The position numbers were made by a program, and so were the translations under genes. Of a stretch of DNA of 64,000 nucleotides, positions 27,377 to 39,630 are shown piece after piece (within the stretch, counting starts at the first letter, position 1; each line of letters begins with the position of its first letter). The stretch lies in the NCBI GenBank assembly GCA_947626395.1, contig CANQRU010000010.1, positions 1-64,000 of the forward strand, in the 5' to 3' direction. Origin of the DNA: an uncultured Lachnospiraceae bacterium. Lineage in GTDB: Bacteria; Bacillota; Clostridia; Lachnospirales; Lachnospiraceae. The notes under the pieces were generated by a model. The model had not been told where the DNA came from and did not search any database. It was given only the letters and a program-made list of their open reading frames with translations.

Positions 27377-27407
27377 GATTAGGCAGTCGCGAAAGACGCG
27401 TTGTTAT

Positions 27408-27480
27408 GGGGTCATAGCTCAGCTGGGAGAGCACCTGCCTTACAAGCAGGGGGTCACAGGTTCGAGCCCTGTTGGCCCCA
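27408..27480 (+). tRNA. tRNA-Val (anticodon TAC)
   Basis: A 73-nt cloverleaf. The acceptor GGGGTCA pairs with TGGCCCC, the discriminator is A, and CCA is not encoded. The anticodon stem CCTGC/GCAGG encloses the loop CTTACAA with anticodon TAC. The T arm has GGTTCGAGCCC. Confidence 0.96.
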
Positions 27481-27491
27481 TATCCCACGAT

Positions 27492-27565
27492 GGCGGAATA
27501 GCTCAGTTGGCTAGAGCACACGGTTCATACCCGTGGTGTCGAGAGTTCGAATCTCCCTTCCGCTA
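27492..27565 (+). tRNA. tRNA-Met (anticodon CAT)
   Basis: A 74-nt cloverleaf. The acceptor GGCGGAA pairs with TTCCGCT (G-T at the first pair) and the discriminator is A. The anticodon stem CACGG/CCGTG encloses TTCATAC with anticodon CAT. Its sequence resembles the Bacillus elongator Met tRNA (GGCTAGAGC D loop, ACGGTTCATACCCGT), rather than initiator or the lysidine-modified Ile tRNA. Confidence 0.93.
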
Positions 27566-27572
27566 TTTTATG

Positions 27573-28984: not shown

Positions 28985-29050
28985 GAGGCAGGCGTTAATG
29001 CCGATAAAGGGGAATCGGTATCTGCGATAAGGCTGCGAATGAACATTATA

Positions 29051-29079
29051 TGGACTTTTCTGCAAGAATATGTTAATAT
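29051..29079 (+). promoter_or_regulatory. Putative promoter of the kinase/FHA cluster
   Basis: TGGACT (29051-29056) and TAATAT (29074-29079) are 17 bp apart, about 60 bp before the kinase start. It is the only plausible vegetative promoter for the seven-gene cluster. The match is moderate and another sigma factor could be involved. Confidence 0.4.
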
Positions 29080-29140
29080 TTATCCATAAATAGTCGGAAA
29101 AGTCACGAACTCAAGAGAAAAATAATTGGGAGAAACAGCA

Positions 29141-32100
29141 ATGAGTAATGATCTTTGCTATAATTGCTTTAGAGAGAAGCCGGAAGATACCGCGGGAAGC
29201 AGCTGCCCTTATTGCGGATATGATCCGAATACCGATCTGCATAAATATCCGCTGGCACTGCCGGGCGGAACGATCCTTGCCGGCCGCTACATTCTGGGAA
29301 GGGTTCTGGGGCAGGGCGGTTTCGGGATTACCTATGTGGCGCAGGACTGGCAGACAAAGTCGCTGGTCGCGGTCAAGGAATACCTACCGGATACTATGGC
29401 GACCAGAACAGGCGGCGCTTCCGTGTCTCCGTATTCTGGTGAACGCGAGGAGAGCTTCCGGTACGGTAAGGAGTGCTTCCTGCAGGAAGCGCAGACGCTC
29501 GCAGAATTTATCGGGAACCCCAATATCGTTCGGATACACAGCTATTTTGAGGAAAACGGAACGGCTTATTTCGTTATGGATTATGTCGCCGGGATCAGTT
29601 TCCAGAAATACATCGAAAACAATGGCGGCAAGATTTCCTGGGAGGATGCGGAGCGGATCCTCCTGCCGGTCATGACTGCGCTGGGCGCGGTACACAGCAG
29701 GGGAATCATTCACCGGGACGTGACGCCGGATAATATTTATATCACAGCAGACGGGACAGTAAAGCTTTTAGACTTCGGCGCTGCCAGATACAGTCTGGGC
29801 AATCAGAGCCGGAGCCTTGATGTGGTCTTAAAGCATGGTTTCGCGCCTAAAGAACAGTATACCCGGAAAGGGCGGCAGAGCAGTTACACGGATGTGTATT
29901 CTCTGGCGGCTACTTTTTACTATGCGGTTACGGGGCGCACACCGCCGGATTCTGTAGACCGCGTGGATGAGGATGACCTGTTTTCTCCAAGTTCTCTCGG
30001 AATTAAGATACCAAAACAGGTAGAAGACGCGATCTTGAAAGGAATGAGCGTACAGGCGGCGGATCGTTTCCAGACCATGGACGACTTCCGAGCGGCGCTG
30101 ACAGGGAAGGCCGGACAGGACACGGAAGACAGTGCTGACCATATACGGTCCGATGATCCCGGGAAGGATATTTCGGAAACCCTGAAGGAGTCTATTGAAG
30201 AAAAGAGCATCGGGGGAAAAGAGATTAGCACAAATGACGGCTGGAACGACAGAAAGAGCGGCAGCAGGAAGTGGCTGCGCCCTGTGGCCTTGGGGGCTGT
30301 CGGCGTTCTTGTGCTTGCCATTGTTCTGGCTGTGGTCCCGAGGGGCAAAAAGGAAGCGGCTTATCAGGGAGATACGACGCGGACGACAGCTGCGGCGGCC
30401 GGATCTGACGGGCGCCGCCTGACCGGAGGACAAGGGAATGGGGCTGCCGTGAGCGGCGGATCCCAGTCGGGAACGGCCACTGAGACGGTTACAGGCAATA
30501 CCTCCGGCAATCTGAGCAACGGCGGATATCTGTGCAGTCAGGGATCGGCAGTTTATATGTGGCTTCCGGGCAGCGGTATGATCCATGTGCTGGCGAACGG
30601 CGGCGGAGACGCAGAAGTATATAAAGAAGGCGATATCAGCGCAGTCAGCATGGTCAATGATATGCTGTATTTTCTGGATGCCGATCATCAGGTCTGCCGG
30701 ATGAACCGGGACGGTTCGCAGGAGGAGGTTCTGCTGACAGGTAGTGATACAGGCGATATCTGGAATCTGATCATGTCGGAAAAGGCTGCTTATATAGTGT
30801 GTATCGGATCGAGCGGGACTCATATTTACCGATCGGAACTGGATGTCAGCGGCAGACTGGGAGACACGCGCGAAATCACGGATAACTGTTACAATATTAA
30901 TTCCGTCGTATTGGATGACGGATGGCTGTATTATCCGGACAGAACAACTTACGGAAAAGATATCTGCCGCATACCGGCGGATGGTTCCGAAGAGCCTGAG
31001 GTGCTGTGCAGCTTTGACGGCGTCTGTGCTTCCCTGGTGGAAGAAGGCGGTTATCTTTATGCGGCGGTAAGCCCTAACAATATATACCGGATCGATCCGC
31101 AGGATGGATCTGAGGAACTTCTCGCAGCGCAGGTGGGCGGGGATGGCTCTTCTGTTTCAACTCTCAATGTGTATCGGGGGAATGTACTCTGCGCAGTCAG
31201 CTATCCGCCTGCGGATGACCGGACCAACTGCCTGGTCCGGATATCGTCGGGAGTGCAGAAGGTGATCTATCAGGCAGCCGCTTCAGAATCTCTGTCCGAT
31301 ATCAATCTTGCAGACACGGATCCGAATGCTATCAAGGTTATGGCGCTGATCGATAACGGCGTAGGGACGCGTATTCTGCTGACAGATATGAACGGAAGCG
31401 ACGCATCGGTGTACGGCGCGGCGTCATCCGGCATAGAAGGTAATATCCAGGCGAATCTGGTCAATGGCAGCTTCGCGGTCGAGGATGAAGATTCCTACTA
31501 TTACGCGATAAGATCCGGTATCGTCAAAGTTGATAAATCCTCGGGAAATGCTGTGATACTGACCGGAAGGGATGCCGAATATCTGAATGTTTATGGTGAT
31601 TCGCTTTATTATCTGAGCAATGGCGATCTGTGGGGCATCGGTAAGGATGGCAGAGATGAGGCATGCCTCCTGGAAGGCCAGAAATATGAAAGCATGATCA
31701 TAGTTGACGGATATTGTTATGTATATAATGGAGATCCGGGGTGTTTGACCCGGATTCCGCTGAACAGCAATTCGTCGGCGAACGTTGTGGCGGATGATAT
31801 GCTGGGTGAGGAGAAATATCTGATTCTTGACGATTACGTTTATTATTGTGATGACGCCGATATGGATGTGTATCGGGTACATACGGATGGAAGCGGCAGG
31901 GAATTCCTCTGTAAAGATCTTGGACATTGGCCTAATTTCTATGACGATTGGATTTACTGGAGCGATCTTACCGGCGGAATATGGAGGATGAGGTTAGACG
32001 GCAGCCGGGTTGAGACCAGCTGGACCAGAACCGGCGGTGTATCGTGTTGCTGGAATCTGGCTATATATAAGGATACTTTTTATTTCATGGATACCGATGA

Positions 32101-32605
32101 TTCGATCTACCGCATGAACATGGACGGAAGCGGGCTGAGAAAAATTGCAGATCCGAATGAACTGGGATGCACTTATATTTACGACATTAATTTTGTGGAT
32201 GAATGGATGCTGGTAGACGCCTATTCATCGGTAATCGCGATCAATCTTAACGACGGCAGGAAGGTCGTAAATCCGGGTCTGGAGAACGGCGAGGTGACGC
32301 CGATCGAGCCAGTATCGCAGGCACAGAATGACAACAGCGAATACATACTGCCGGAAAGCGATTCCAGGTATTATACGGCGGCTGAACTTAGGGGATACTC
32401 TGCCGATGAGCTCCGCCTTGCCAGGAACGAGATCTATGCACGGTACGGATGCACGTTTAAGTCAGCGGATCTGCAGGCGTACTTCGATTCCAAATCCTGG
32501 TACCGGAAGGGCACCAGGGCGGCGAGCAGCTTTTCAACTACCGAGTTCAATCCGTATGAGAGGGCTAATATTGATATGATCAAGAGTGTTGAGGCCGAAA
32601 AATAG
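29141..32605 (+). CDS. Transmembrane receptor-like Ser/Thr kinase with propeller and YARHG domains
   Basis: A 1154-residue protein. Residues 1-30 hold a zinc ribbon (CYNC and CPYC). The kinase domain (about 45-325) has LGQGGFGITY, the ATP-binding Lys in VAVKEY (K79), HRDVTPDN (H191, D193; Thr replaces the usual catalytic-loop Lys) and DFG. A Ser/Gly-rich linker surrounds one TM helix (about 378-400). The outer part consists of repeats of the form YWSDLTGGIWRM-x-DGS, suggesting a DUF5050-like beta propeller. A YARHG domain closes it (about 1075-1150, LRLARNEIYARYG). Its sensor is quite unlike the PASTA domains of PrkC. It begins the seven-gene cluster. ATG 29141 follows GGGAG; a TTG at 29126 is less likely. 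Confidence 0.88.
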   Translation: MSNDLCYNCFREKPEDTAGSSCPYCGYDPNTDLHKYPLALPGGTILAGRYILGRVLGQGGFGITYVAQDWQTKSLVAVKEYLPDTMATRTGGASVSPYSGEREESFRYGKECFLQEAQTLAEFIGNPNIVRIHSYFEENGTAYFVMDYVAGISFQKYIENNGGKISWEDAERILLPVMTALGAVHSRGIIHRDVTPDNIYITADGTVKLLDFGAARYSLGNQSRSLDVVLKHGFAPKEQYTRKGRQSSYTDVYSLAATFYYAVTGRTPPDSVDRVDEDDLFSPSSLGIKIPKQVEDAILKGMSVQAADRFQTMDDFRAALTGKAGQDTEDSADHIRSDDPGKDISETLKESIEEKSIGGKEISTNDGWNDRKSGSRKWLRPVALGAVGVLVLAIVLAVVPRGKKEAAYQGDTTRTTAAAAGSDGRRLTGGQGNGAAVSGGSQSGTATETVTGNTSGNLSNGGYLCSQGSAVYMWLPGSGMIHVLANGGGDAEVYKEGDISAVSMVNDMLYFLDADHQVCRMNRDGSQEEVLLTGSDTGDIWNLIMSEKAAYIVCIGSSGTHIYRSELDVSGRLGDTREITDNCYNINSVVLDDGWLYYPDRTTYGKDICRIPADGSEEPEVLCSFDGVCASLVEEGGYLYAAVSPNNIYRIDPQDGSEELLAAQVGGDGSSVSTLNVYRGNVLCAVSYPPADDRTNCLVRISSGVQKVIYQAAASESLSDINLADTDPNAIKVMALIDNGVGTRILLTDMNGSDASVYGAASSGIEGNIQANLVNGSFAVEDEDSYYYAIRSGIVKVDKSSGNAVILTGRDAEYLNVYGDSLYYLSNGDLWGIGKDGRDEACLLEGQKYESMIIVDGYCYVYNGDPGCLTRIPLNSNSSANVVADDMLGEEKYLILDDYVYYCDDADMDVYRVHTDGSGREFLCKDLGHWPNFYDDWIYWSDLTGGIWRMRLDGSRVETSWTRTGGVSCCWNLAIYKDTFYFMDTDDSIYRMNMDGSGLRKIADPNELGCTYIYDINFVDEWMLVDAYSSVIAINLNDGRKVVNPGLENGEVTPIEPVSQAQNDNSEYILPESDSRYYTAAELRGYSADELRLARNEIYARYGCTFKSADLQAYFDSKSWYRKGTRAASSFSTTEFNPYERANIDMIKSVEAEK

Positions 32606-32663
32606 AAAAGCCGAAGATCAATGGCGCAGGATAAGCCCGGAAATGGGGGAAGGAAAGGGAACC

Positions 32664-34061
32664 ATGGGGAACCGGACATTTTTTGTGAAGGCCGGCAGCA
32701 AGGTCTCCAGGATCACCTGGAAGGATGTTTTCTCGGAGTACAGAGTAAAACACTCAAAGCAGGATCTGGAGTATGCGCTTTTGGCGGGAAGTTCGCTCGA
32801 TACGGCGACGGATGCTACTATGCTGCAGAAATGGCAGAGACCCTGGATTTTTTATCCGTTGCTGAAAGGCGGAATCGCGCTGATCGTGCTGATCTATGTG
32901 CTGCTTTACGGATCTTTCCTGCTGTTCGGCATGTCGGCCGTGTCCCTGATCCAGATGGCAGAGATCATTCCGCCGCTGATACCGCCCCTGATCCTGCTGG
33001 TGTTTTTCTGGGAGATGAATATTCCCCGCAATCTGTCTATCTATGAGGTGCTGGGAATCTTCCTGGTCGGCGGGCTTCTGTCCTTTACAGTCACTGGGTT
33101 TATGTTCCGGATGATAGACAGCGGTCTTCCCGCCGGGTACGCAGCTTTGCGGGAAGAACCGGCCAAGCTGGCGGCATCGGTGATCTTTCTAGCATTTCTG
33201 AGCAGAAAGAAGAAAATATACGGCATTACCGGTCTGGCGGTCGGGGCGGCGGTAGGCGCCGGATTCGGTGCGTTTGAATCGGTTTCTTATGCGATCGATT
33301 CAGCGGTGACGATCGATTCGATGGTATGGAACCAGCTTCTGCGGGGCGTACTTGCGCTGGGCGGCCATACGCTGTATTGCGCTCCCTATACGGCGGCAAT
33401 TGCCCTGCATATGAAAGATGGCAGGATGAGCGGCGAAAGCTTTCTGAACGCTGACTTTGCCCTTGCGTTCCTGTTCTCCTGCGCAGCCCATTTCTGCTGG
33501 AATACGGCGTTTTTCGATTCGGACGTTCTGGAGTTTGCCAAGATGGTCGCGATTACGGCGGCGCTATGGATGTTTGTGTTAAAGATTCTGCAGAAATGTC
33601 TCTACCAGGTAACGCAGGCTGCGGCCGCAGCGGGCGGACAGCTTCCGGTGGGCGGCACGGCATTCGGACGGGCCGCTTATAGCACAGTTAAAAAACAGGC
33701 GGCAGGGAAAGAGGCAGGACAGGCTGCGGGTACGCTCCGTTTGCGTTGTGTTCGGGGAAGCCTGCAGGGAAACGTCTGGGATGTGCCGGCAGGAAAGACG
33801 GTCACTGTGGGAAGAAGCGCTGATTGCGGCGTCTGTTTTCCGGATGCCGCCGCGGGTGTCAGCCGGCATCACTGCAGCGTTCAGTACACGGAATTTGGCT
33901 GGACCGTGAAGGATCTGAATTCCAGCTACGGGACATTCCTGGATAGGAAGACACAAGTGCTTCCGGATACAGAGATCAGGCTTCGTTCAGATAATCTGAT
34001 CTATATAGGAGGAAAGGAAAACGTACTGCAGGTCACCATTTTCCAAGGCGACAGCAGATAA
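32664..34061 (+). CDS. PrsW-like intramembrane protease fused to an FHA domain
   Basis: A 465-residue protein with about eight TM segments between residues 65 and 315, then a cytoplasmic linker and an FHA domain (about 355-460). PrsW hallmarks are visible: REEPAKL (E164, E165, K168, the EExxK motif), then FGAFESVSYA, and HTLYCAPY and HFCWN for the last motifs. PrsW cleaves anti-sigma factors such as RsiW. The FHA part contains GRSADCGVCFP, SRHHC and SSYGTFLD, with the Arg, Ser and Asn-type contacts used to bind phosphothreonine. ATG 32664 has GAAGGAAAGGG upstream; GTG 32586 and ATG 32643 have poor sites. Confidence 0.82.
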   Translation: MGNRTFFVKAGSKVSRITWKDVFSEYRVKHSKQDLEYALLAGSSLDTATDATMLQKWQRPWIFYPLLKGGIALIVLIYVLLYGSFLLFGMSAVSLIQMAEIIPPLIPPLILLVFFWEMNIPRNLSIYEVLGIFLVGGLLSFTVTGFMFRMIDSGLPAGYAALREEPAKLAASVIFLAFLSRKKKIYGITGLAVGAAVGAGFGAFESVSYAIDSAVTIDSMVWNQLLRGVLALGGHTLYCAPYTAAIALHMKDGRMSGESFLNADFALAFLFSCAAHFCWNTAFFDSDVLEFAKMVAITAALWMFVLKILQKCLYQVTQAAAAAGGQLPVGGTAFGRAAYSTVKKQAAGKEAGQAAGTLRLRCVRGSLQGNVWDVPAGKTVTVGRSADCGVCFPDAAAGVSRHHCSVQYTEFGWTVKDLNSSYGTFLDRKTQVLPDTEIRLRSDNLIYIGGKENVLQVTIFQGDSR

Positions 34062-34085
34062 AAATTATATTCAAGGAGGTCAACA

Positions 34086-34748
34086 ATGCCGAAGACAGAA
34101 TGTGGAAGAGGTCATATTTATGATACGGATCTGTATCCGTCCTGCCCGTACTGCAATGGAGGCGGAAAGATGATTTCTTTTGATGACGTGGGGAAGACCG
34201 CACCTCTCGGCGGGGGAGAAAGCCTGGGAGGTGGCATGTCGGATCAGCCGCGTACGTCGTTGGGAAAGACGGAGGCGCTTCGTCCTGCACAGATGGAGCC
34301 GGCATCAAGGAAAACCGTCGCTCCGGAAGAATACCGTAACCGGGAGGAGAAGGAGAATAAGACGGTCAGCTTAAGCCGTAAGAAGATGGACATAGAGCCG
34401 GTCGTCGGCTGGCTGGTCTGCATCGATGGCGCCGACAAGGGGAAAGATTATCGTCTTCTTGACAAGCAGAATACCGTCGGCCGCAGTTCAGAAATGGATG
34501 TCTGCATTAAAGGGGACAATACGATTTCCCGTGACAGGCACGCGAGGATCGCTTATGATTCCCGCCATAATTATTTTACGCTGATTCCGGCGGAAAGCAC
34601 CAATAATATTTACGTCAATGATGAACCGGTCTATATGCCGGTGAAGCTTGAGCCGTACGACTGCATCGAATTCGGTGAGAGTAAATTTGTTCTGGTCGCT
34701 CTGTGCGGCGAGCGTTTTAACTGGCAAGACGGTTTACAGGGAAGGTGA
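34086..34748 (+). CDS. Zinc-ribbon FHA-domain protein
   Basis: A 220-residue soluble protein. The N-terminus has CGRGHIYD and CPYC, a zinc-ribbon-like pattern resembling that of the kinase. Residues 25-105 are a flexible stretch with Thr in GKTAP, GKTEAL, RKTVAP and NKTVSL contexts, which are candidate phosphorylation sites. An FHA domain spans about 110-210 (VGRSSEMDV, ISRDRHARI, STNNIYVN). It looks like the phosphorylated adaptor of the cluster, an inference. AAGGAGG precedes the start; the PP2C gene follows after 6 nt. Confidence 0.85.
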   Translation: MPKTECGRGHIYDTDLYPSCPYCNGGGKMISFDDVGKTAPLGGGESLGGGMSDQPRTSLGKTEALRPAQMEPASRKTVAPEEYRNREEKENKTVSLSRKKMDIEPVVGWLVCIDGADKGKDYRLLDKQNTVGRSSEMDVCIKGDNTISRDRHARIAYDSRHNYFTLIPAESTNNIYVNDEPVYMPVKLEPYDCIEFGESKFVLVALCGERFNWQDGLQGR

Positions 34749-34754
34749 CGGCAC

Positions 34755-35591
34755 ATGTGGATTTTTTCCGGAAAGAAACAGAAAACGCCGCCTAAACCGG
34801 CGGATCTGTCTGCACCTGATACGCCGTCCAGACGGAGGCTCAGTTATCAGGTCGCTTCTCTGCAGGGGATCGGAAGGAGAGAACGTCAAGAGGATGATTT
34901 TCTGATCATCAACGGCGACGATGTCGTTGAGATGGGCGCGAAGGGTCTTCTTGCTGCCGTTGCGGATGGAATGGGCGGCATGAAGGACGGCAGCCTGGCG
35001 AGCAGGACAGCGATCGAATGTCTGCAGAGCGGTTTTGACGGGCTGGACCGCAGCACGGATCTGGCGGACCAGCTTTCAGACATTGTGTTCCGGGCTGGCG
35101 GGCAGATCCGCGCGCTGCTGGGCGGAGACGGCGGAAGTACGGTGGTCGTCTGCCTGATCTTCGGGGAGAAGCTGTATTTTGTCAGTGTCGGAGACAGCTA
35201 TCTGTATCTGAAGCGGGGCACGCAGCTTTACCGTCTGAACCGGGAGCATACGTATCGCAGCTTGCTGTATCTGCAGCAGATTCGTTCCGGAAAGATGGAT
35301 CCGAAGGCGGCGGAGGAAGACAAGGAATCGGGAGCGCTTGTTCAGTTCCTGGGTATGAGCGGGATGGATGAAATCGACGGTTTTAAACACCCTTATCCGT
35401 TAAAGGACGGCGATGTGCTGCTTTTGTGTTCGGACGGTGTCGGCGGCGTCCTTTCCGAGGAGCAGATCCTTGGCTGCCTGAGCTGGCCGAAGCCGACGGA
35501 AATATGCGCGAATCTGGAGGAGAACGTGCTGAAGCAGGGACTCTCTTACCAGGATAACTATACGGCGGTTGTGGTCCGCTGTGGATATTAA
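34755..35591 (+). CDS. PP2C-type protein phosphatase 1
   Basis: A 278-residue metal-dependent Ser/Thr phosphatase. Residues 1-30 are a basic/proline-rich tail (KKQKTPPKP). The catalytic domain shows GRRERQEDD, AVADGMGGMKDG, VSVGDSYLYL, LLLCSDGVGG and DNYTAVVV, the metal-binding Asp residues of PPM family members. No TM helix. It could remove phosphates placed by the upstream kinase. The next gene is 18 nt on. Confidence 0.9.
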   Translation: MWIFSGKKQKTPPKPADLSAPDTPSRRRLSYQVASLQGIGRRERQEDDFLIINGDDVVEMGAKGLLAAVADGMGGMKDGSLASRTAIECLQSGFDGLDRSTDLADQLSDIVFRAGGQIRALLGGDGGSTVVVCLIFGEKLYFVSVGDSYLYLKRGTQLYRLNREHTYRSLLYLQQIRSGKMDPKAAEEDKESGALVQFLGMSGMDEIDGFKHPYPLKDGDVLLLCSDGVGGVLSEEQILGCLSWPKPTEICANLEENVLKQGLSYQDNYTAVVVRCGY

Positions 35592-35609
35592 ACAGAGGGG
35601 AGATTTCAG

Positions 35610-36926
35610 ATGAAAAAGAAAAGAGGTTTTTTGCTGTTAACGTGTTTGTTTATGGTAAGTTCGGTGATCCTGTCTTCGGCCAGCAGCTTCCGTACAGAGG
35701 TGAGAGAGAGCGTGGCTGCCATTGCCACTTATCTGGAAATCGACGGCGTGGGAGATCTCTATAGTTCCGGCACGTGCTTTTTTGTGGGAAAGAAGGACGA
35801 GAATCCGCAGTATCTGGTAACGAACAATCACGTGATAGCGGATTATATTGATTTCGGATCCGGCGAGGCGCAGACCCTCACTTTGGAGGATGGTTCGCAG
35901 CATGCTGTAAGAGTCACGATGCGGGTTTACTATGACGCCAACGATTATGAAGAAGCTTATGTGGTCGCTCATGACGAGATCAAAGATATTGCTGTGCTGC
36001 GGCTGGGCAATCCTACCATGAAGCGCAAGGCGATCGTTCTGGAGATACCCACGGAAAATGTCGTAGGAGCGACGGTGTACGCAGTCGGATATCCCGGTCT
36101 CTCAGATAATGCAGCCATGTCTCCGGTATCCCAGTGGGGAGTAACGGACGCCACCGTTACGACGGGAACCGTCAGCCGTCTGCTGACCGCTTCCGGAACC
36201 GGCGTTCGTCAGCTTCAGCTGGACGCCGTCATTCAGCATGGAAATTCCGGCGGTCCGCTTGTGAACGTCGACGGATATCTTATCGGCATTAACGCCAGTG
36301 GGGTTACCAATACGTCTGTGACCGGAAACAGTATTGAGATCGAGAGCGTCAATTACGCGATCAATATCGAAGAACTGATTCCCATGCTGGACAATAATGG
36401 TGTGCCGTATGAGATCCGGCCTGATAAGAATCTGGTGTTGCCGCTGATTTTGGGCGGCGCGGCTGTGATCGTCCTTTTGGTGGTATTGGTTATCGCTTTG
36501 GCAGGCAGGAAGAAGACGACGGCAAAGAATACTTCACCGGCTTCACCGGAACAGATCGCGCCGGGAAACGGCGCAGTGGGGAGTATCCACCCCGCGGCCG
36601 CTCTGCATCCTGCGATACGTTCTATGGCGGTCCAGCATAACGGCGGAAGGATTTCGATCGGAAATGATCCGGTTCTGATCGGCAGGGATACAACTGCCTG
36701 CAAGATCGTCTATAAAGAGGGGACGCCGGGAATCAGCGCGAGGCACTGTTCTGTTGTCTGGGAACCGCAGACCGGCGATTTCCTGCTGACGGATCTGCGG
36801 TCAACATACGGAACTTATCTGTCTGACGGACAAAAACTTACGCCGGGTGTTCCGTACCGGTTAAGGGCCGGCGACAGCTTCTATCTGGGAGAACCGGCGA
36901 ATACGCTTCGGGTCGAGATGGGGTAA
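35610..36926 (+). CDS. Membrane trypsin-like serine protease with cytoplasmic FHA domain
   Basis: A 438-residue protein. Residues 1-26 form a signal peptide or anchor. An S1C-like protease domain (about 30-265) shows the triad: H74 in NNHVIA, D126 in IKDIAVL, S213 in HGNSGGPL. A TM helix follows at about 275-298, then a linker and an FHA domain (about 345-430: IGRDTTACKI, SARHCSV, STYGTYL). The protease part faces outside and the FHA part inside, linking extracytoplasmic proteolysis to phosphothreonine binding. It differs from HtrA by lacking a PDZ domain. Confidence 0.88.
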   Translation: MKKKRGFLLLTCLFMVSSVILSSASSFRTEVRESVAAIATYLEIDGVGDLYSSGTCFFVGKKDENPQYLVTNNHVIADYIDFGSGEAQTLTLEDGSQHAVRVTMRVYYDANDYEEAYVVAHDEIKDIAVLRLGNPTMKRKAIVLEIPTENVVGATVYAVGYPGLSDNAAMSPVSQWGVTDATVTTGTVSRLLTASGTGVRQLQLDAVIQHGNSGGPLVNVDGYLIGINASGVTNTSVTGNSIEIESVNYAINIEELIPMLDNNGVPYEIRPDKNLVLPLILGGAAVIVLLVVLVIALAGRKKTTAKNTSPASPEQIAPGNGAVGSIHPAAALHPAIRSMAVQHNGGRISIGNDPVLIGRDTTACKIVYKEGTPGISARHCSVVWEPQTGDFLLTDLRSTYGTYLSDGQKLTPGVPYRLRAGDSFYLGEPANTLRVEMG

Positions 36927-36932
36927 CTGTCT

Positions 36933-37658
36933 ATGAAGATGGATGGATTCCTTTACACCAGCCAGGGAGGAAGGGAATATAATGAGGACTCGGTCTCGTT
37001 CCGCTGCGAAGGAGATACAGGTATTTTCGTGGCGGCGGACGGACTTGGCGGTCATGATAACGGTGCATTGGCGTCTTCCTGCGTGGTAGATACGCTGTTG
37101 GAAGCGTGGAATGCAAAATCGCAGGCTGGGGAAGAACGCCGGCAATGGCTGCTCTTACAGATCGAACAGGCCAACCAGAAGCTACTCACGCTTCAGAAAG
37201 AGGCTAATTCCAGGATGCGCAGCACGGTCTCGGCGCTTTTGATCGACGGCGGCCAGGCAGTCTGGGGACATGTGGGCGATTCCCGCCTGTATTATTGCCA
37301 TGACAGCGGTATATGCAGGGTCACGGAGGATCATTCGGTTGCTTATAAAAAATATAAGGCCGGAGAGATCACCAAACAGCAGATCGGTCAGGATGAAGAT
37401 CAGCCCAGTCTTCTGAGAGCGCTTGGAAATCCCGACAGGAATGAACCGGATCTGGACGGTGCGGCGTTAGAAAACGGAGACGCGTTTTTGCTCTGTACGG
37501 ACGGTGTATGGGAGTATTTGGATGATGAAGAAATCCTCATTGATCTTTTGAAGGCGGAAACAGCGCAGGAATGGGCGGAGTTGCTCCTCCTGCGTGTGAT
37601 TGCCCGCGTTCGTCCGGATCACGATAATCTAAGCCTGATAACGGTTTTGATAGAGTAA
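36933..37658 (+). CDS. PP2C-type protein phosphatase 2
   Basis: A 241-residue phosphatase with the PPM motifs GGREYNEDS, VAADGLGGHDNG, GHVGDSRLYY, LLCTDGVWEYL and DHDNLSLI. It has the compact length of PrpC-type enzymes and is only moderately similar to the upstream phosphatase (different N-terminus and loops), so a recent tandem copy is unlikely. Six nt after the protease-FHA gene. Having two phosphatases with one kinase suggests separate substrates or locations. Confidence 0.9.
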   Translation: MKMDGFLYTSQGGREYNEDSVSFRCEGDTGIFVAADGLGGHDNGALASSCVVDTLLEAWNAKSQAGEERRQWLLLQIEQANQKLLTLQKEANSRMRSTVSALLIDGGQAVWGHVGDSRLYYCHDSGICRVTEDHSVAYKKYKAGEITKQQIGQDEDQPSLLRALGNPDRNEPDLDGAALENGDAFLLCTDGVWEYLDDEEILIDLLKAETAQEWAELLLLRVIARVRPDHDNLSLITVLIE

Positions 37659-37682
37659 TGCTATGCGAGGGAGGAACCTTCA

Positions 37683-39464
37683 GTGAGAAGACGTTTGTTT
37701 ATTTTTTGGCTGACAATGCTGGCAATGTCCTGGACGGTATGCCTGACGGCCGTCGCTTCGGCTGTGGGGGACGCGGCTGCGGAAGAGACGGCGTCTGACG
37801 GAGCGGACACGGAGGCAGGAACTTTGGCATCGGCGGAGGAACGTTCGGGAGAGACAGCCGCGGAGATGGGGAATCTGTCGTATGGTCCGCGGCTGACAAC
37901 GGTTTCGGCATACGGAATAGACAATAAGCTGTATACGTTCGTGCAGGCAGAGGGGGAGCATGATCCGGCGCAGATGAAGGCATCTCTGAAGCTTGAGAAT
38001 AATACTCTGTTGGATGCGATGACAGATCCTAAGAAATTAACGGATTGCGACACGATTGTCCGTTATCTCCTGATGGTCGATTTGTCCGGCTCCATGCGGA
38101 AGTATTCATCCGTGATAGAACCGTTCATTTATTCGTTAATGGAGCAGGAGAAACAGGATGTTGTATTCACGGTAGCGGGTTTTGGAGAGAAATTTGAGCA
38201 GGTTCACGAGAATCTGACGGATCCCGCAGCTGTTGCAGATGCCGTCCGTAATCTGGAATATAATCAAATGCTGACGGATCCCTATAACGGTCTTGTTTAT
38301 GCGCTGAATTATATCGGTTCCACATCCAGGCTTGGAGGCGATCTGGTTAATCTGGTCATTATCACGGATGGAGTTCCGGATCTCGGCAAGCAGGGAGAGG
38401 AAGAACAGACGGCTGAGAAAGCTGCGGCAGAGACGACTCTGATGGCCCTGGGCGAATCAGCGGAAACGGTTGTGCATACGGTATGCGTATCGGAATGGGA
38501 TGACCTGGCGCAGCAGACGTTGTCGCAGGGGAGCGGCCTGGATCTTATGATTACAGACGCTGAAGACGCGGAGAGCGCCGGAAAAGAAATGGCAGAGTTT
38601 ATCGACGGGCTGTATCGTATCGATTTCCCCTGCCCGGCGCATTCAGCCATGGAACGGTTCCCTGTGGAGATGCGTTTTGTTGGCCGGATCAACAATAATA
38701 TCGCGGTTTCCGAGACCCGGATCTCTGGTGTTACGGTACTGCGCAGCGGAGTTGCCGCACCGGTCGTTCCTTCGAAGCAGGAACAGACGGAAGGCGCGGA
38801 GAATGGCGAGACGCCTTCGGAGCCGGCCTCTTCAGCGGCTGAAGGCGATTTGCCGGAGATAACGGTTCCCGCGACAGAGAATCCGATGGAGACAGAGAGC
38901 GTATCGGGAACGGAAGATTCGTCAGAAACAGAGACTGCTCCGGAAACAGATGCAGACGGGACGATATCCGAAGGGGAATCATCGGATGCGGCTTCGCTGC
39001 CTGATAACGAGGCGGATGATCCAGAGAATGGCGGCGGAAAACGAAAGCTGTTTTTGATCCTGGGGATCGCGGCAGGGGTTCTGCTGGCGGCCGTCGCCGC
39101 GGTTTTGGTATTTCTTAAGGGGAAGAACAGGAAAGCGGGAGAGAATGGCGGGTCTCATGACGGCAGCGGAATATTCATGAAAATGGAAGTCATTTCCGGC
39201 AGGTATGCTGGTTCCAGAACGACATTCCTGCTGAAGGATCAGCTCTTGATCGGGAGCGGGAAAAACTGTGATATGATCTGGAACGATGCAGGGGTGGCTC
39301 CGCAGAATACAAGAGTATTCCTGAAGGATCAGGTCGTCTATGTGGAGGATCTGAATTCGCCGGAAGGAACCTTCCTTTGCGGAATGCGGATATATTCACC
39401 GAACCGTCTTCGGAGCGGAAATGATATTTCCATAGGCGGTGTCAGTTTCCGGCTGCGGTTCTGA
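37683..39464 (+). CDS. Surface VWA-domain protein with TM helix and cytoplasmic FHA
   Basis: A 593-residue protein starting with GTG after GGGAGGAAC. It has a signal peptide (residues 1-28). A von Willebrand A domain (about 125-330) carries the MIDAS motif DLSGSM (D133, S135, S137). An acidic Ser/Thr/Glu-rich stalk spans about 360-450, a TM helix about 456-480, and an FHA-like domain about 505-593 (LLIGSGKNCDM, SPEGTFLCG). In this FHA the usual Arg and His contacts are changed (GSGKN, APQNTRV), so phosphothreonine binding may be lost or altered. It is the last gene; a terminator follows at 39495. Confidence 0.87.
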   Translation: MRRRLFIFWLTMLAMSWTVCLTAVASAVGDAAAEETASDGADTEAGTLASAEERSGETAAEMGNLSYGPRLTTVSAYGIDNKLYTFVQAEGEHDPAQMKASLKLENNTLLDAMTDPKKLTDCDTIVRYLLMVDLSGSMRKYSSVIEPFIYSLMEQEKQDVVFTVAGFGEKFEQVHENLTDPAAVADAVRNLEYNQMLTDPYNGLVYALNYIGSTSRLGGDLVNLVIITDGVPDLGKQGEEEQTAEKAAAETTLMALGESAETVVHTVCVSEWDDLAQQTLSQGSGLDLMITDAEDAESAGKEMAEFIDGLYRIDFPCPAHSAMERFPVEMRFVGRINNNIAVSETRISGVTVLRSGVAAPVVPSKQEQTEGAENGETPSEPASSAAEGDLPEITVPATENPMETESVSGTEDSSETETAPETDADGTISEGESSDAASLPDNEADDPENGGGKRKLFLILGIAAGVLLAAVAAVLVFLKGKNRKAGENGGSHDGSGIFMKMEVISGRYAGSRTTFLLKDQLLIGSGKNCDMIWNDAGVAPQNTRVFLKDQVVYVEDLNSPEGTFLCGMRIYSPNRLRSGNDISIGGVSFRLRF

Positions 39465-39494
39465 TGGTATTCCGAAATGTATACAGTACAGGAG

Positions 39495-39528
39495 TAAAAA
39501 AGGCGGCGGAGAGATCTGCCGCTTTTTT
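39495..39528 (+). terminator. Terminator after the kinase/FHA cluster
   Basis: AAAAAGGCGGC (39496-39506) pairs with GCCGCTTTTTT (39518-39528), with one bulged G. It separates the cluster from the ECF sigma gene. Confidence 0.75.
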
Positions 39529-39630
39529 GATACTTTTTTCGTGCGGTGTAATTTATGGGAAAATAGTAATCATTCCACATCATCCCGGACGTTACAGTAT
39601 ATGAGGGGACGCCCTCCGGAGGAAATGACA

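Follow-up and report, generated by a model that had tools for sequence, protein, structure and literature searches.

What would a bacterium gain from encoding, in one uninterrupted run of genes, a receptor-like kinase, two phosphatases and four proteins that carry the phosphothreonine-binding FHA domain? The question is raised by a seven-gene block in a 64,000-nucleotide (nt) stretch of DNA from an uncultured Lachnospiraceae bacterium (assembly GCA_947626395.1, contig CANQRU010000010.1, positions 1 to 64,000; hereafter, the window). The best-supported reading is a phosphothreonine scaffold, written by the kinase and erased by the phosphatases, that would gather FHA-tagged membrane proteins. 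This reading draws on co-inheritance of the genes, a threonine array in one product, retention of Arg, Ser and His in the PrsW and trypsin FHA domains, varied kinase ectodomains on a constant relay, and published precedents for condensates.

All seven open reading frames (ORFs) lie on the + strand between 29141 and 39464, as the initial annotation had placed them. The sensor kinase (29141-32605) contains an N-terminal zinc-ribbon-like motif, a Ser/Thr kinase domain with HRD and DFG motifs, one transmembrane (TM) helix and an ectodomain with DUF5050 and YARHG. It is followed by a PrsW-family intramembrane protease with a C-terminal FHA domain (32664-34061). A start at 32586 is possible for this ORF and would overlap the kinase gene; the ATG at 32664 is most likely the start because its product begins MGNRTFF and relatives begin MGNT, and it gives the 58-nt gap reported previously. 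The remaining genes encode a small zinc-ribbon FHA protein, here called the adaptor (34086-34748), a PP2C phosphatase (34755-35591), a trypsin/HtrA-like protease with a signal peptide, TM helix and FHA domain (35610-36926), a second PP2C phosphatase (36933-37658), and a VWA protein with a signal peptide, TM helix and degenerate FHA domain (37683-39464). Gaps from the PrsW-FHA gene onward are 24, 6, 18, 6 and 24 nt, and a terminator-like stem-loop (39497-39528, + strand) ends the cluster, as had been noted.

Pfam matches in gene order were Pkinase, DUF5050 and YARHG; PrsW and FHA; FHA; PP2C_2; Trypsin_2 and FHA; PP2C_2; and FHA and VWA. The kinase, PrsW, FHA, PP2C and trypsin motifs of the initial annotation were borne out in this way, while the VWA match fell under the Pfam cut-off (22.1 vs 27 bits), yet its metal-site residues D133, S135, T198 and D229 are shared by all 29 aligned VWA-FHA proteins, the window copy included. 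Metal-site residues are likewise present in both phosphatases. The signal peptides and single TM helices of the kinase, trypsin and VWA proteins were identified by crude hydropathy. These 10 kb hold 4 of the 6 FHA, 2 of the 4 PP2C_2 and 1 of the 6 Pkinase matches in the 3.46-Mb genome, so the clustering is not a matter of chance. The two other FHA genes of the genome (L031:8216-9709 and L032:8167-10484, the latter locus also with a PP2C and a kinase) are surrounded by genes that we take to resemble those of Tad pili.

Co-inheritance of these genes was assessed with an alignment of four PrsW-FHA sequences, which retrieved 53 loci from 84,980 species genomes; neighbouring genes were outside the query. 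The loci are titled mostly Lachnospiraceae, Oscillospiraceae and other Clostridia, lie on contigs mostly from metagenome-assembled genomes (MAGs) and not only from complete genomes, and include near-duplicates (e.g., L133 and L136) and one species counted twice (L105 and L119). Domains were called with profiles built from those of the window and iterated on the fetched loci, with Pfam applied to part of the material. Among the 38 loci with at least 15 kb of context (the longer loci), a kinase was found in 38, PP2C in 37 (at least two copies in 31), VWA-FHA in 16, trypsin-FHA in 12 and another membrane FHA protein in 25; the adaptor was present in 28 by a strict pattern and in 33 by a looser one, and kinase, PP2C and a further FHA protein occurred together in 34. 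Over all 53 loci, 306 cluster genes shared the strand of the PrsW gene and one was opposite. The initial annotation had proposed looking for co-occurrence of the seven architectures, and all seven kinds were found in 11 of the 53 loci, 7 of these among the longer ones. The best match, L089, has the order PrsW-FHA, adaptor, PP2C, trypsin-FHA, PP2C, VWA-FHA, with its kinases after rather than before.

An adaptor profile of 21 rows, A4, to which nine of the 31 class-level matching genomes contributed a row, matched 31 of 391 class genomes at E ≤1e-40 and 8 of 299 phylum genomes at E ≤1e-50, the window genome being in both sets; the remaining matches down to 1e-10 (5 class and 21 phylum genomes) look like ordinary FHA domains. 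In 28 further loci picked from these searches, the adaptor was accompanied by PP2C in 27, a kinase in 16, trypsin-FHA in 9 and VWA-FHA in 6. None of these 28 contained PrsW-FHA, so that this protein is an optional effector. A full-length PrsW-FHA was found in 1 of 119 other family genomes sampled (G095) and 0 of 25 other genus genomes, and a related cluster lacking this protein occurs in one genus member (G511, locus L084). The earlier proposal of a single kinase/PP2C/FHA membrane system agrees with this co-inheritance and the 306:1 strand bias, and the block very probably works as one functional system.

The clearest clue to its operation lies in the adaptor, which has a zinc-ribbon-like C-x3-H...C-x2-C start, a variable and presumably disordered linker, and an FHA domain whose tail has the conserved pattern F-x-P-x-C-G...F-x-W. 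A T-x-[PAG]-hydrophobic pattern, picked after the linkers had been read and compared with shuffled linkers, occurred 166 times in 73 distinct linkers vs 27.7 expected; the serine version occurred 20 times vs 23.7 expected. Excesses were also found in a reduced set of 56 linkers (123 vs 20.9), in the first adaptor set (141 vs 21.8; 50 of 52 linkers, two too short having been dropped) and in 16 linkers from the adaptor-search loci (16 vs 4.9). The array is strongest in the adaptor yet also occurs outside it, in the linkers of PrsW-FHA (26 vs 8.0) and trypsin-FHA proteins (11 vs 4.0); the kinase-to-TM segment contained 37 vs 28.5, and 19 vs 7.9 for the T-x-P form. Counts were near expectation at the N-termini of kinases (10 vs 11.3) and PP2C proteins (33 vs 37.0), and those for kinase-FHA, VWA-FHA and other membrane FHA linkers were 12 vs 9.6, 7 vs 5.4 and 12 vs 9.6, respectively. 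In the window, the threonines concerned are T38 (KTAPL), T62 (KTEAL) and T93 (KTVSL, with Ser at +2 and outside the strict pattern). T93 is invariant in 40 of 40 adaptors, and another threonine is conserved in at least 90%. Some FHA domains accept a hydrophobic +3 residue well. Linker length was correlated with how many other FHA proteins a locus contained (rho 0.55, p 4e-5), an association that gene-rich loci alone may explain. It is reasonably probable that the linker serves as a phosphorylated dock.

The candidate readers of such marks are the FHA domains of the membrane proteins. Phosphothreonine binding by FHA involves residues in G-R, S-x-x-H and N-G motifs, as described in the relevant part of a published account (PMC1262709). 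Arg, Ser and His are kept in 52, 55 and 56 of 56 PrsW-FHA proteins and in 30 of 30 trypsin-FHA proteins; the window copies of both have G, R, S and H, with Tyr for Asn. The adaptor FHA domain contains R, H and N, and its S and H are one residue further apart than in the motif. The VWA-FHA family keeps Asn in 27 and Arg in 26 of 29 members.

The presumptive writers vary on their outer face. Pfam analysis of 49 of the 55 qualifying transmembrane kinases (six were left out of the ectodomain count) revealed DUF5050 in 15, LRR_5 in 12 and C-type lectin domains in 4, with YARHG only in the window kinase. The ectodomains thus appear interchangeable while the relay stays the same. The initial annotation had held this kinase to be separate from PrkC/PrpC, and rightly so: the genome's PASTA kinase, with its PASTA domain confirmed and a PP2C adjacent, is elsewhere (G000:C13), and the window kinase, with its DUF5050 and YARHG ectodomain, misses the PASTA-kinase equivalog cut-off (153 of 450 bits).

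Catalytic residues are retained widely. Asp of HRD and Asp of DFG are present in 130 of 145 kinases, the remainder being mostly alignment gaps, and the PP2C Asp residues are kept in 111-112 of 114 proteins. PrsW residues E190, E191, K194, E231, H261 and H302 (numbered from 32586) are conserved in 49-51 of 56 PrsW-FHA proteins; the window protein passes the Pfam PrsW cut-off (47.0 vs 23.5 bits) and misses that of NCBIfam intramemb_PrsW (21.8 of 225 bits). The trypsin triad is present in the window protein, and its H, D and S are found in 26, 27 and 26 of 30 trypsin-FHA proteins; the window protein reaches no HtrA/DegS NCBIfam cut-off. A further membrane FHA protein also recurs, and hhalign placed its ectodomain with the trypsin family (22 sequences; probability 92.5, E 4.9e-7) and not with VWA (probability 0.9). 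No triad could be made out by eye in its consensus, and such proteins (L092:11371-12597 and 23 aligned relatives) are probable pseudoproteases.

These components suggest the following sequence of events. The transmembrane kinase would sense an outside cue via its ectodomain and phosphorylate threonines in the adaptor linker, and several phosphothreonines would make the adaptor a multivalent dock. The cytoplasmic-side FHA domains of the PrsW-type and trypsin-like proteases would bind the phosphorylated adaptor, so that the proteases may be concentrated around the active kinase, where they would cleave a substrate, and the two PP2C enzymes would erase the marks. We consider there to be an even chance that the island is a self-contained membrane signalling relay that operates in this manner. 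Proteolysis as its output in this island is somewhat more doubtful.

Several observations weigh against this reading. The threonine motif was defined post hoc and the adaptors are related, so that the shuffles overstate its significance, and motif number did not correlate significantly with the count of further FHA proteins at a locus (rho 0.23, p 0.12). The invariant threonine, which is N-terminal to the FHA domain, is not aligned with the phosphothreonine of GarA at the ETTS position. Tyr replaces the Asn of N-G in 42 of 56 PrsW-FHA and 25 of 30 trypsin-FHA domains, including the window copies. The window VWA-FHA domain lacks Arg, Ser, His and Asn altogether, having G-S in place of G-R, A in place of S and N in place of H; because these phosphate-binding residues are lost, recruitment of the VWA protein by phosphothreonine is improbable, and the earlier suggestion of recruitment through FHA domains is weakened for this member. 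Of the 38 longer loci, 4 are without the core set of a kinase, PP2C and a further FHA protein. Some relatives have a degenerate trypsin domain or no PrsW-FHA, and proteolysis therefore cannot be the sole output; the analysis found no protease substrate. The array is also missing, by eye, from plasmid-borne adaptors of Azospirillum and Leisingera, and from a second, rule-defined adaptor group (1 motif observed vs 0.9 expected).

This second group (L204, L208 and L227; also L201-L203) has short linkers and occurs with FHA/2TM proteins, two membrane PP2C proteins and an unnamed gene set that looks like an undescribed complex. In L204, the set comprises proteins of 725 and 875 amino acids (aa) and tandem proteins of 141 aa; none of the seven L204 proteins tested had a Pfam match, and the 141-aa neighbour had no match in a PDB search. 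Its uncharacterised surroundings, the degenerate trypsin ectodomain of the recurrent relative mentioned above, and the PpkA/Fha precedent, in which a threonine phosphorylation pathway controls a type VI secretion system (T6SS), would also suit a module that governs how a larger envelope machine, with its genes at another site, is assembled, with the protease-like and VWA ectodomains as sensors or scaffolds. This alternative is unlikely: the catalytic residues of both window proteases are intact, and when representatives of the 15 neighbour families that recur (present in at least 3 of 70 loci, from 370 unassigned neighbour ORFs) were scanned with Pfam, no secretion or pilus genes appeared. A secretion machine encoded next door was rejected on the same scan. 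Two neighbours found beside clusters deserve mention in their own right, a family of ~367 aa without a Pfam match (L133:4881-5984; 12 copies in 9 loci), and a secreted-looking protein of 1689 aa that has GLUG repeats after a Pfam ubiquitin domain close to its start (L128:750-5819) and lies near a PrsW-FHA cluster in what may be a MAG chimera.

The limits of the block emerge from comparison with congeners. Two flanking markers, YbaK and an extracytoplasmic function (ECF) sigma factor gene, occur on one contig in six of 25 congeners; in all six, ECF-matching sequence begins ~75 to 750 nt after YbaK, and the sequence corresponding to ~28985-39565 of the window is missing (blastn). This 10.6-kb island, whose ends are approximate, has a G+C content of 0.530, against 0.574 elsewhere in the window; each of 65 overlapping stretches of the same length used for comparison was higher (0.567-0.592). 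Third-position G+C is 0.57-0.66 in its seven genes vs 0.65-0.75 in seven neighbours. Gain of the island is likelier than repeated loss, and the block was apparently acquired as one mobile unit. There is no integrase among the Pfam matches of the seven genes and no exact direct repeat of at least 8 nt between the two end regions. Genes for tRNA-Val and tRNA-Met are located at 27407-27566, ~1.4 kb upstream.

Because six congeners have the ECF gene beside YbaK without the cluster, this gene is part of the older neighbourhood and not of the cluster. The initial annotation had speculated that the ECF sigma factor is a target of PrsW; in such a scheme, PrsW would free the adjoining sigma factor by cutting its anti-sigma factor, with the kinase relay gating the cut. 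The gene does lie directly downstream, PrsW carries out site-1 cleavage of RsiW in Bacillus subtilis according to a passage on this family (PMC3482391), and in one relative (L101) an ECF gene directly follows the kinase. That case is the only one among the 53 loci, none of the 38 longer loci has an ECF gene nearby, ECF/ABC genes occupy the same site without the cluster in the six congeners, and a terminator-like stem and a G+C step separate the gene from the cluster. L101 notwithstanding, the proposal was set aside as very improbable. ECF genes are also found near two clusters without PrsW-FHA (L021 and L085).

The patchy distribution of the island could instead suit a defence or conflict system, in which infection activates the kinase and membrane proteolysis halts growth. 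PADLOC likenesses of the kinase to PD-T4-6 models (best E 9.8e-51), of the trypsin protein to RT-Protease models (6.8e-18) and of the second PP2C to PDC-M21C (1.6e-15) point the same way, as do dynamin-like genes beside the nearest relative (L089) and in a Leisingera plasmid cluster; vWA-MoxR conflict systems, as described in part of one account, also mix VWA, trypsin (often inactive), kinase and FHA domains (PMC7159879). These likenesses are to common enzyme domains, however, and for PD-T4-6 are confined to the kinase domain; PrsW-FHA, the adaptor, the first PP2C and VWA-FHA had no PADLOC match, the adaptor had no match in 50,697 phage records, and the surface-like ectodomains fit external sensing better. 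We regard a defence role as quite improbable.

Blocks of this kind are found in many gut bacteria and extend beyond the Clostridia. The adaptor matched 19 plasmid records (Leisingera 12, Ruegeria 5, Azospirillum 1 and Rhizobium 1); the Azospirillum and Leisingera hosts are Alphaproteobacteria, as we presume the other two to be. Plasmid AZO_p4 of Azospirillum lipoferum 4B (L259:12297-21036) encodes VWA-TM-FHA, adaptor, PP2C, PP2C, trypsin-TM-FHA, FHA-kinase and kinase-TM proteins, with an integrase and transposases within the same 28 kb. A Leisingera plasmid has a kinase, adaptor, PP2C and two genes annotated as dynamin-family (L260:16576-19580). The zinc ribbon is missing from the adaptors of Azospirillum and Leisingera, and plasmid searches with PrsW-FHA and trypsin-FHA proteins returned no record covering 80% of the query. 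Nearer relatives vary in their effectors as well. Double-FHA ABC-2 exporter proteins were found by Pfam in two clusters (L029:9923-12000 and L082:15320-17635), and two dynamin-like GTPase genes, one FHA-fused, precede the L089 cluster of a Lachnospiraceae MAG (L089:4331-8971); at the other loci searched, apart from the Leisingera plasmid, there were none.

A broader and more tentative proposal is that of a portable signalosome, in which interchangeable receptor kinases would write phosphothreonines on one adaptor and interchangeable FHA-tagged effectors would cluster there, placing intramembrane proteolysis under phosphothreonine control; the module would move between species and have relatives in at least two phyla. 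Its effectors would comprise an intramembrane protease, an outside-facing protease, a pseudoprotease, a VWA protein, an ABC exporter and a dynamin-like GTPase. Such scaffold logic may be likened to that of eukaryotic LAT.

Among known bacterial systems, the arrangement that we take to be the TerY-P triad, of small VWA, kinase and PP2C genes, was the link to Ter-associated stress systems drawn in the initial annotation. In its favour, PrsW-FHA adjoins a small VWA gene in four loci (L105:2021-11347, L109, L114 and L115), with a kinase in L105, L114 and L115 and PP2C in L105 and L114. L105, L114 and L115 lack the adaptor, and L109, a 6.4-kb contig, has the small VWA gene only. The window VWA protein is not of this small cytosolic type, being a secreted membrane protein with a signal peptide, TM helix and FHA domain, and no Ter genes were identified. 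L105 is from [Clostridium] asparagiforme DSM 15981, a species that also has the usual cluster (L119).

The PpkA/PppA/Fha pathway of the T6SS resembles the cluster in encoding a membrane kinase, PP2C and FHA scaffold together and, if the reading proposed here is right, in using a phosphorylated scaffold to gather membrane components; the sections of two reports concerned describe a model in which phosphorylated Fha multimerises (PMC6082577) and PpkA/Fha condensates that recruit such components (PMC12607579). The present cluster differs in fusing FHA to membrane proteases and in the zinc ribbon and threonine array of its adaptor, and Pfam identified no T6SS structural genes among the seven proteins or the representatives of the recurrent neighbour families, non-recurrent neighbours being outside that scan. 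The PknG/GarA-OdhI system of Actinobacteria also relies on a small FHA protein in the cytosol, whose phospho-acceptor region precedes the FHA domain, as the putative one of the adaptor does, and the structures nearest to the adaptor profile in a PDB search were mostly GarA and OdhI (E 5.5e-6 to 6e-3, the best about 1e-5). The adaptor nevertheless misses the NCBIfam cut-offs for OdhI (29.4 of 200 bits) and FhaB (40.9 of 125 bits). Homology of its invariant threonine with that of GarA was considered and rejected, the profile alignment giving it no support. GarA/OdhI homologs share a phosphorylatable ETTS motif, as described in the pertinent section of one source (PMC8546545), and are reported to bind metabolic enzymes, in place of the several motifs, zinc ribbon and presumed membrane partners seen here.

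Rv1747 likewise combines FHA with a disordered linker at the membrane, where PknF-driven condensates are reversed by the phosphatase PstP, according to the relevant part of a report (PMC9312465). It is an FHA-ABC exporter, unlike the proteases of the window, and Rv1747-like proteins are present in some related clusters, namely the two with ABC-2 exporters above. Fusions of PrsW with FHA and with zinc ribbons were noted in 2012 and proposed as likely signalling peptidases, in a passage that treats the fusions only and not this gene cluster (PMC3482391). Clustering of FHA, kinase and phosphatase genes was noted earlier in Mycobacterium tuberculosis, and the portion of that account concerned describes no membrane-protease-FHA protein or threonine-array adaptor (PMC1262709). 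Our literature search found no description of this cluster, a weak absence given partial coverage that included few subscription papers.

Each single domain and the use of kinase/PP2C/FHA relays were known. What is new, within the literature searched, is a conserved, apparently mobile and modular cluster with one adaptor bearing a threonine-specific array and with FHA domains on membrane proteases; the array, the island, the interchangeable kinase ectodomains and the proteobacterial relatives go beyond the initial annotation. If the proposed wiring is true, phosphothreonine control of intramembrane proteolysis could be tested with a few purified parts, having swappable sensors and effectors, and the system would point to a function for many receptor-like kinases in gut Clostridia.

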